NCBI RefSeq assembly: GCF_009712225.1
Contig: NZ_WASP01000006.1
Coordinates: forward strand, 124,001 to 188,000
DNA: 64,000 bases
From: Desulfovibrio sp.
GTDB lineage: Bacteria; Desulfobacterota; Desulfovibrionia; Desulfovibrionales; Desulfovibrionaceae
Direction of reading: 5' to 3'
The notes below the pieces were generated by a model that had not been told where the DNA came from, searched no databases, and was given only the letters and a program-made list of their open reading frames with translations. The translations under genes and the position numbers were made by a program. This document shows positions 19,272 through 20,760 of the stretch, one piece after another (the stretch's first letter is position 1; each line of letters begins with the position of its first letter).

Positions 19272-19543
19272 GTAATCTCCTTGATGGTAGTGGGCTAGTG
19301 GTACTCGGAATGCCTGTCCCCGGCAAGCAGCAAGGTTGTTTAAACATTGCGGTAATAGAGCCGGATGTGCAGTGCTTGCCTGGGGGGTTGCATTATGTCT
19401 GATAACCGTAGAAAATATTTCTGCAAAAAAGTCTAGATTTTATCTTGAAATTTACAGGCGGGTAGTGTAGCGCAGAAAGAAAAGATGGCGTAACACGATG
19501 TTTGGCAAAACTGTGCCAGGCCGCACGCATCATCGGGGGCATC

Positions 19544-19966
19544 ATGCCGCAGGTTGCAGCACGCATTAACGACGATCAGGAACGCTGGCTCAAAGACTAT
19601 TTTCGTACAAAGAGCGCTGGGGCTGAGTTTATTCTTCCCTGGGCCGTTGATACGTTTTTTCGGGCCATTACGGGCATCAAGCACATATTCAGCGCGGCTG
19701 AGCTCAAAACTATTGTGGAAGCCCACAAAGATATGAAGCTTATGCCTGATCACACGCGTCTTTCGTATCTTTTGCTGCGGGTTACCGATGCGTGTGACAT
19801 AAACGGCGTGCATATGCGGCATGGAGCCAGCAAATCGAGCCTTGAAGCCAAAATAAAAAGCCTGGACGACACGCAGGCAACCGCACTGATGGTGTGGGCT
19901 TCTGCCTTCTGGGTAAGCCGCAACTGTTCCGCAGAAAATATGGACGAGTACATCAAGGCCTATTGA
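19544..19966 (+). CDS. Hypothetical protein (140 aa)
   Basis: Start at the in-frame ATG at 19544 (MPQVAARINDDQERWLKDYF), with a GGGGGC stretch upstream; a TTG at 19502 is also possible. The protein is soluble and helical and begins like a ribbon-helix-helix or small DNA-binding region (PQVAARINDDQERWLKDYF), but this is a weak impression. The middle holds LSYLLLRVTDACDINGVHMRHG. No known family is recognised. It lies just before the structured RNA-like element and panD. Confidence 0.6.
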   Translation: MPQVAARINDDQERWLKDYFRTKSAGAEFILPWAVDTFFRAITGIKHIFSAAELKTIVEAHKDMKLMPDHTRLSYLLLRVTDACDINGVHMRHGASKSSLEAKIKSLDDTQATALMVWASAFWVSRNCSAENMDEYIKAY

Positions 19967-19973
19967 TTTTAAT

Positions 19974-20179
19974 TTGCCATCTATTTAGGTTCACAACGCC
20001 TTGGCAGCCCGGAGTGTTGCGACCACACCGGGTTTGCTGCCCTCAGGGGCGGATGTGGGAGTATCAATACGTTGCGCATTAGCTGTGCTGGCCCCGTAGT
20101 GGTCGGCACGGTGAACCACTACAAGATGGCAATTTGGGATTAGGCATATTATTCTGGTCGCGTCAGCGGCCTTTTTTTT
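19974..20179 (+). ncRNA. Candidate structured RNA / regulatory leader before panD
   Basis: No reading frame fits here, yet the stretch is full of pairing. The outer helix is TTGCCATCT (19974-19982) with AGATGGCAA (20124-20132). GGTTCAC (19988-19994) pairs GTGAACC (20111-20117). A hairpin is formed by GGCAG, CCCGG and GTG at 20003-20016 against CAC, CCGGG and CTGCC at 20024-20041. GGGGC (20046-20050) pairs GCCCC (20091-20095). An alternative hairpin GTAGTGGT/ACCACTAC (20096-20103/20115-20122) excludes the second helix. The loop sequence CGACCAC (20020-20026) is complementary to GTGGTCG (20099-20105). Overlapping bases GCGACCA (20019-20025) are complementary to TGGTCGC (20155-20161), which includes the terminator arm. 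It could be a riboswitch-like leader of panD, or a free small RNA such as 6S. I recognise no known family. Confidence 0.45.
20156..20179 (+). terminator. Intrinsic terminator between the structured RNA and panD
   Basis: GGTCGC (20156-20161), loop GTCA, GCGGCC (20166-20171), then eight T. It ends 31 bases before the panD start, so it either ends the RNA or controls read-through into panD. Confidence 0.75.
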
Positions 20180-20210
20180 CGGCGCGGGCAACCGCGCAAG
20201 AGAGAGCATC

Positions 20211-20624
20211 ATGCTGCAAATACTGCGCGCCAAGCTGCACTGCATACGCGTTACCGGGTGTGAGCTGAACTACCACGGTTCTGTTACCCTGGACCCGGAA
20301 CAATGCCGCGAGGCTGGCATCTACCCGCTGGAATTTGTGTATATCTGGAACAAAAGCAACGGCCAGCGCATCTCGACCTATGTCATTTATGGCGAACCGG
20401 GTTCACGTTGCTGCATTCTCAATGGCGCTGCCGCCCGCGCCTGCCAGCGCGGCGATGAGGTTATCATCAGCGCTTACGAGTATGTGGACAGTCCAAAGGA
20501 TCTGTACAGCCGCAAGCCCGTGGTGCTGACCTTCAACGAGGACAACAGCGTGCAGGAACGCCTGCGCTATGTGGTGGACGGTGAAGAACAGGGAGACTTT
20601 GGCTTTCATGTTGAAAGCGAATAA
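20211..20624 (+). CDS. panD: Aspartate 1-decarboxylase
   Basis: Makes beta-alanine for pantothenate and CoA. It is a self-cleaving pyruvoyl enzyme: the motif [10 protein letters not shown] holds the Gly23-Ser24 scission site that generates the pyruvoyl group. LNGAAAR further on matches the family NGAAAR block, and [11 protein letters not shown] is also conserved. The 137 residues fit, with a slightly longer tail. Only a weak AGAGAG Shine-Dalgarno lies before the ATG. No panB or panC is adjacent; the gene stands alone behind an intrinsic terminator and the structured region described above. Confidence 0.93.
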
Positions 20625-20696
20625 TGCTCCTGCTTTGGGAACGCAGCGCGGCCCGCGCGCCTGATCTGCCGTGACAATGAAAACAGGATAGTAATG

Positions 20697-20728
20697 AAAA
20701 AGGAGGCCCCTCAGGAGCCTCCTTTTTT
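20697..20728. terminator. Bidirectional terminator between panD and the J-domain gene
   Basis: AAAAAGGAGGC (20697-20707) pairs with GCCTCCTTTTT (20717-20727) and gives T-runs on both strands, serving the convergent genes. Confidence 0.8.
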
Positions 20729-20760
20729 GCATATAATTGGCGGGCCAAGAATGCCGCGTG

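Follow-up and report, generated by a model that had tools for sequence, protein, structure and literature searches.

Attenuators with a terminator/antiterminator switch carry upstream RNA that is able to pair with the 5' arm of a terminator. Structured RNA has also been described upstream of pantothenate-pathway genes, that of aspartate decarboxylase included, in the form of the pan motif (RF01749), whose stems carry two conserved bulged A residues, occur mostly in tandem and were suggested to bind protein (Weinberg et al, 2010; PMC2864571). A 2015 paper states that pantothenate biosynthesis had until then no identified regulation, and presents PanD-PanZ as the first mechanism of this kind in E. 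coli (PMC4410942). Little work seems to have been done on the control of pantothenate synthesis at the RNA level, though the pan motif was described upstream of such genes. The main text of a survey of non-coding RNA in O. alaskensis G20 (PMC11124144) mentions neither panD nor pantothenate, and literature searches on Desulfovibrio small RNA together with panD, or on D. desulfuricans riboswitches together with transcription start sites, gave nothing relevant among the papers listed, which does not by itself show the element described here to be unpublished.

Here, we analysed a window of 64,000 nt (the whole stretch of DNA under study) from a Desulfovibrio desulfuricans-like genome (G000), focusing on an element between upg and panD (Table 1). 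A reading made from the letters of this one sequence (the sequence-only reading) had proposed a transcriptional switch here, and every pairing that it named exists in the window sequence. We consider the element probably an attenuator of the general terminator/antiterminator kind, outside any named family. The more specific reading that we prefer is held tentatively, at somewhat short of an even chance, from sequence comparison: a transcription attenuator on the + strand that acts in cis within an operon, with a clade-specific terminator/antiterminator before panD.

Table 1 Features of the upg-panD region (window positions; two ranges are given for the two sides of a pairing).
Feature	Position	Strand	Remarks
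upg (label of this analysis only)	19544–19966	+	140 aa from the start chosen here; conserved panD neighbour
Closing helix	19974–19982 with 20124–20132		TTGCCATCT with AGATGGCAA; present in sequence
5' module (TAGGTTCACA + hairpin P1)	19986–20037	+	identity taken over 19986–20031 (alignment columns 18–63), 0–3 gap columns
Second helix	19988–19994 with 20111–20117		GGTTCAC with GTGAACC; present in sequence
Hairpin P1	20004–20037	+	5' arm 20004–20012, 3' arm 20028–20037, 15-nt loop
Loop heptamer GCGACCA	20019–20025	+	complementary to terminator 5' arm; GCGACC invariant in 7/7
Other pairing of the loop	20020–20026 with 20099–20105		CGACCAC with GTGGTCG; present in sequence
Hypervariable middle	20038–20154	+	identity taken over alignment columns 64–210; many indels
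8-bp hairpin	20096–20103 with 20115–20122		GTAGTGGT with ACCACTAC; present in sequence
TGGTCGC	20155–20161	+	overlaps terminator 5' arm; partner of P1 loop
Intrinsic terminator GGTCGC-GTCA-GCGGCC + T8	20156–20179 (stem 20156–20171)	+	31 nt before panD ATG
Hairpin GCGCGG-GCAA-CCGCGC	20182–20197	+	just before Shine-Dalgarno-like stretch GAGAGAG, 20200–20206
panD, aspartate 1-decarboxylase	20211–20624	+	PF02261 133 bits; TIGR00223 105.6 bits, just under cut-off 106

The element was compared with the described systems by covariance search. No Rfam family matched above its cut-off in the whole window and none at E ≤ 10 in 19900–20260; when four homologous loci were searched, none of the six matches at E ≤ 5 fell in the element. 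There was also no tRNA or tmRNA in the window. The pan motif was considered and rejected, with no genome among 61 of the genus above its cut-off and no match at the element; four weak matches (14.9–23.4 bits) lay under the 36.2-bit cut-off. Among 14 control genomes the RF01749 model matched in three, Bacillus subtilis among them, and exceeded the cut-off in one. Like the pan motif as published, the element is structured RNA before an aspartate decarboxylase gene, but P1 is a single hairpin that, by eye, lacks the two bulged A residues shared by those RNAs. The likeness to terminator/antiterminator attenuators lies in upstream RNA that can pair with the 5' arm of a terminator and in the closeness of this terminator to the gene. 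The differences are that Rfam shows neither a T-box nor a known ligand domain in the element, that no leader peptide was seen in passing, that its antiterminator would be a hairpin-loop pseudoknot, and that it occurs in a single clade, in the upg-panD gap.

To describe its distribution, we searched 288 genomes of the family by BLAST, scoring two candidates per genome. Fifteen genomes, the source genome included, gave a match at E ≤ 0.01, and in seven of these (G000, G013, G011, G097, G099, G096 and G119) the element lies at panD with upg upstream. The PanD proteins of these seven are at least 94.9% identical to that of the window; G099, G096 and G119 form a near-identical trio (93–99%), so the seven sequences represent about five lineages. 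The remaining eight matches were short (35–40 bits), had no panD in the fetched flanks and were taken as chance. Neither the source genome nor the other six had a second copy by BLAST at E ≤ 0.01 (two candidates scored per genome in the family-wide search), with E values of at least 0.04 beyond the seven panD loci. A further search used a covariance model, R1, built on the 5' module, with stricter filters and at most 19 candidates scored per genome in the results considered. Over the 288 family genomes, 17 matched R1 at E ≤ 0.1, namely the seven and ten weak ones in other genera (21.0–28.5 bits); the best of these (G065, E = 0.002) lies inside, and in the sense of, a 204-aa open reading frame and was taken as chance. 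A draw of 297 genomes of the order yielded six genomes with the element, all among the seven, and brought up the G065 match again. As far as these searches reach, the element appears to be single-copy and limited to the D. desulfuricans clade. Phages and plasmids gave no match at E ≤ 1e-5, and on these searches, together with those for a second copy, a mobile or repeated element was rejected.

The surroundings of panD were examined in 41 loci from 40 genomes, a subset of the 159 genomes of the family in which panD was matched; 37 of the loci belong to the genus and four to other genera of that family. Within the fetched flanks, some of them shortened by contig ends, upg adjoins panD in 31 of the 41 loci. 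Four of these 31 have an operon-like spacing of 2–14 nt without a terminator, and 24 have a recognisable terminator between the genes, its T-run lying 12–38 nt before panD in 13 cases and 55–245 nt in the other 11. Outside the seven, a terminator occurs without the element in 17 of 24 upg-panD loci, so the element is unneeded for whatever the terminator does elsewhere. The gap between upg and panD measures 242–264 nt in the seven genomes; in the next relative by PanD identity (G098, 82%) the entire gap is 78 nt, and the only hairpin seen in it is the terminator. Four other members of the genus have long gaps (259–295 nt) without a match to the element, so the spot between upg and panD seems prone to sequence gain. 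The upg product had no family or PDB sequence match (Pfam, NCBIfam and PDB searched), and its predicted model, all-helical and weak (mean pLDDT 64.8, four sequences), had no Foldseek match at E ≤ 0.001; the protein could conceivably have a role linked to PanD, such as in maturation.

Conservation within the element is uneven, as assessed in 18 pairwise comparisons (those within the trio were left out) against the four-fold degenerate sites of upg and panD, which are 50–73% identical (70% for the nearest pair, G000/G013). The 5' module is 77–86% identical between lineages (96% for the nearest pair) and more conserved than the four-fold sites in 18/18 comparisons; by this measure it is under constraint. 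The middle is 36–65% identical and at or below the four-fold sites in 18/18 comparisons, while identity is 77–95% for the terminator and 67–89% for the piece after it. Across the seven homologues, P1 pairs in 92.1% of cells, against 33–48% when slid by 1–3 columns, and the inner hairpin proposed from the single sequence was retained in 92–95%. P1 contains two compensatory pairs (G-C to A-U in two sequences and C-G to U-A in one). Its five one-sided changes all give G-U on the + strand. Shuffles scored at least as high in 9/500 cases for cells paired, 8/500 for the covariation score, 52/500 for pairs changed on both sides and 306/500 for pair types, and because of these counts we rate the support for P1 as moderate. 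In G099 and G096 the isolated module has a lowest-energy fold other than P1.

The other pairings of the sequence-only reading fared differently among the seven homologues. While its loop:terminator-arm pairing, its terminator and the inner hairpin are all conserved, the 8-bp hairpin (52% of cells paired) and the competing partner of the loop at 20099–20105 (56%) are not, so that two competing partners for one loop are unsupported as it described them. The closing helix is paired in 66% of cells; four of its pairs show changes on both sides, and three of the nine fail in at least four sequences. The second helix is paired in 69%, with many G-U pairs. Taken together, these two helices pair in 67% of cells, as opposed to 33–53% in slid versions; given this excess and the four two-sided changes, a shorter closing helix may be real. 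The RNA of the element as it stands in the window folds better than dinucleotide shuffles (z = -5.3), also without the terminator (z = -4.2). The surplus without the terminator recurs in G011 (z = -3.7) and is weak or absent in the other five, including the nearest relative, G013 (z = -0.4), and the remaining four (-0.3 to -1.2), and a strong overall fold is thus common to one of six relatives. When folded alone, the hypervariable middle showed no surplus in any of the seven (z = -0.54 to +0.12).

The pairing of the P1 loop (GCGACCA) with the terminator arm had been proposed beforehand on the basis of a single sequence, which makes the relatives a test of it. All seven homologues retain it (100% of cells), as a conserved 7-bp alternative whose formation would exclude the terminator. 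On 212 gap-free columns, GCGACCA/UGGUCGC is the only helix of at least 7 bp that pairs in 7/7, and the only other helix of at least 6 bp in all seven is the terminator (6 bp). This test ignores helices that run across indels and misses P1 itself, in which some pairs fail in single sequences and an indel falls in the 3' arm. A length of 7 bp was reached in 11 of 1,000 full column shuffles, and shuffled upstream columns matched the arm in all sequences over 7 bp in 50 of 20,000 and over 6 bp in 684 of 20,000. A single cell of the loop:arm helix differs (A-U to G-U in G097), without a compensatory change, and loop and terminator may both have been altered on one ancestral branch, in which case the match in seven genomes may count as one event. 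The terminator itself is kept in all seven (100% of cells), its stem and T-run lying between the element and panD and ending 30–36 nt before the gene. A 5' arm that matches the loop, GGTCGC, is present in 7/7 genomes of the clade and in 0/17 of the other upg-panD terminators, whose 5' arms are GGCCGC, GCCGC, GGCCGT or extensions of these. In five of the seven genomes GCGACC is a copy of the terminator 3' arm; G000 and G013 have GCGGCC there instead, with a U-G pair in the stem, and although this 3' arm does not copy the loop, the 5' arm still matches it.

Under the attenuator reading, transcripts begun upstream, probably at upg, would run through P1, whose loop would present GCGACCA. The loop could then capture the newly made 5' arm UGGUCGC, forming a 7-bp antiterminator pseudoknot ahead of transcription of the 3' arm; without capture, the terminator would form and panD would be left out. 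The switch could be set by upg translation, by a protein or by simple kinetic partition, and no ligand is indicated. In all seven genomes the 30–36 nt from terminator to panD are too little for an ordinary promoter, so panD RNA should cross the terminator. We infer a shared upg-panD transcript, pseudoknot formation and control of panD by the pseudoknot. A consensus promoter scan of 19280–20760 placed no promoter anywhere, and so none for upg either. Computed energies are -8.9 to -10.2 kcal/mol for the terminator and -11.1 to -11.2 kcal/mol for loop:arm without pseudoknot cost; in this model the two pairings are similar in strength, before any such cost. In equilibrium folds of the RNA before the terminator, the hexamer is predicted to be mostly unpaired only in G000 and G013 (mean probability unpaired 0.82 and 0.67) and mostly paired elsewhere in the other five (G011, 0.00; G097, 0.24; G099, 0.24; G096, 0.25; G119, 0.42). 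Of the switch logic originally suggested, the terminator/antiterminator half is strengthened by loop:arm being kept in 7/7, and the partner at 20099–20105 is unsupported. In the fullest version, a clade-specific switch, a hairpin loop repeating the 3' arm of the terminator that follows it would trap the 5' arm of this terminator, giving RNA-level control of panD in Desulfovibrio by a loop-terminator pseudoknot antiterminator inside an operon, a design with no matching Rfam model; this version we regard as doubtful. A working attenuator would give sulfate-reducing bacteria a simple RNA switch that lends itself to testing, and would exemplify a recently arisen switch next to an older terminator.

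Instead, the upg mRNA could end at the terminator, the element being its structured 3' region or a small RNA processed from it, with GCGACC acting on other RNAs or proteins and panD expressed by leaky read-through. In line with this, the conserved part begins some 20 nt past the upg stop codon, the element ends in a terminator, and 17 other upg-panD loci have a terminator between the genes and no element; invariant hexamers exposed in a loop are typical of seed regions. However, complementarity of the invariant loop to the terminator 5' arm (the 7 bp seen in 50 of 20,000 shuffles) would not be expected from this explanation, and no promoter-like site for an independent RNA was found. We consider it unlikely.

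A second alternative, which we judge less probable again, holds that only the terminator matters, perhaps with the hairpin near the start codon, and that the extra ~170 nt are an insertion of this clade, the 5' hairpin either stabilising mRNA or having no function and the 7-bp match being due to chance or to duplication of the terminator. The middle would suit such an origin, being at or below four-fold-site identity, rich in indels and devoid of a fold surplus. Also, by eye, the 5' module occupies the place of the terminator (TAGGTTCA / GGCCGC) in relatives such as G021 and G098, which makes a duplication possible, but loop and terminator share little beyond the hexamer (again by eye), and the constraint on the 5' module speaks against this alternative. 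The hairpin at 20182–20197 is itself kept in 86–93% of cells with one compensatory pair, a hairpin forms there in 7/7 folds, and it may affect panD translation.

The sequence-only reading had also thought of a ligand, and a riboswitch that binds a CoA-pathway compound or aspartate would accord with the position before panD and with the terminator logic. We consider this very improbable, as the element occupies one locus per genome in one clade (R1 in 7/288 family genomes and 6/297 order genomes, all among the seven) rather than presenting a conserved core at several loci or lineages. What is conserved before the terminator is the hairpin and its 5' flank alone, the middle is hypervariable, there is no Rfam match, and no metabolite-binding core is visible. 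Finally, 6S RNA (RF00013), which that reading had raised and which the long, largely helical, hairpin-like fold of the element in the window recalls, or another known RNA family, can be dismissed, since neither RF00013 nor any other family model matches over the element at E ≤ 10, the 6S RNA of this genome lies on another contig (C3, 2624–2807; full-length match of 75.5 bits, cut-off 46.4) and no pan motif exceeds its cut-off in 61 genomes of the genus.

Regarding panD itself, the PanD of the window is 60–67% identical to the PanD of 22 Alcaligenaceae/Burkholderiaceae-type records and about 36–46% identical to PanD from other families of its own order, and this closer likeness suggests horizontal transfer of the gene. 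D. vulgaris Hildenborough is described as having no panD and as using another decarboxylase (PMC10102598), which fits a patchy history of panD in the order.
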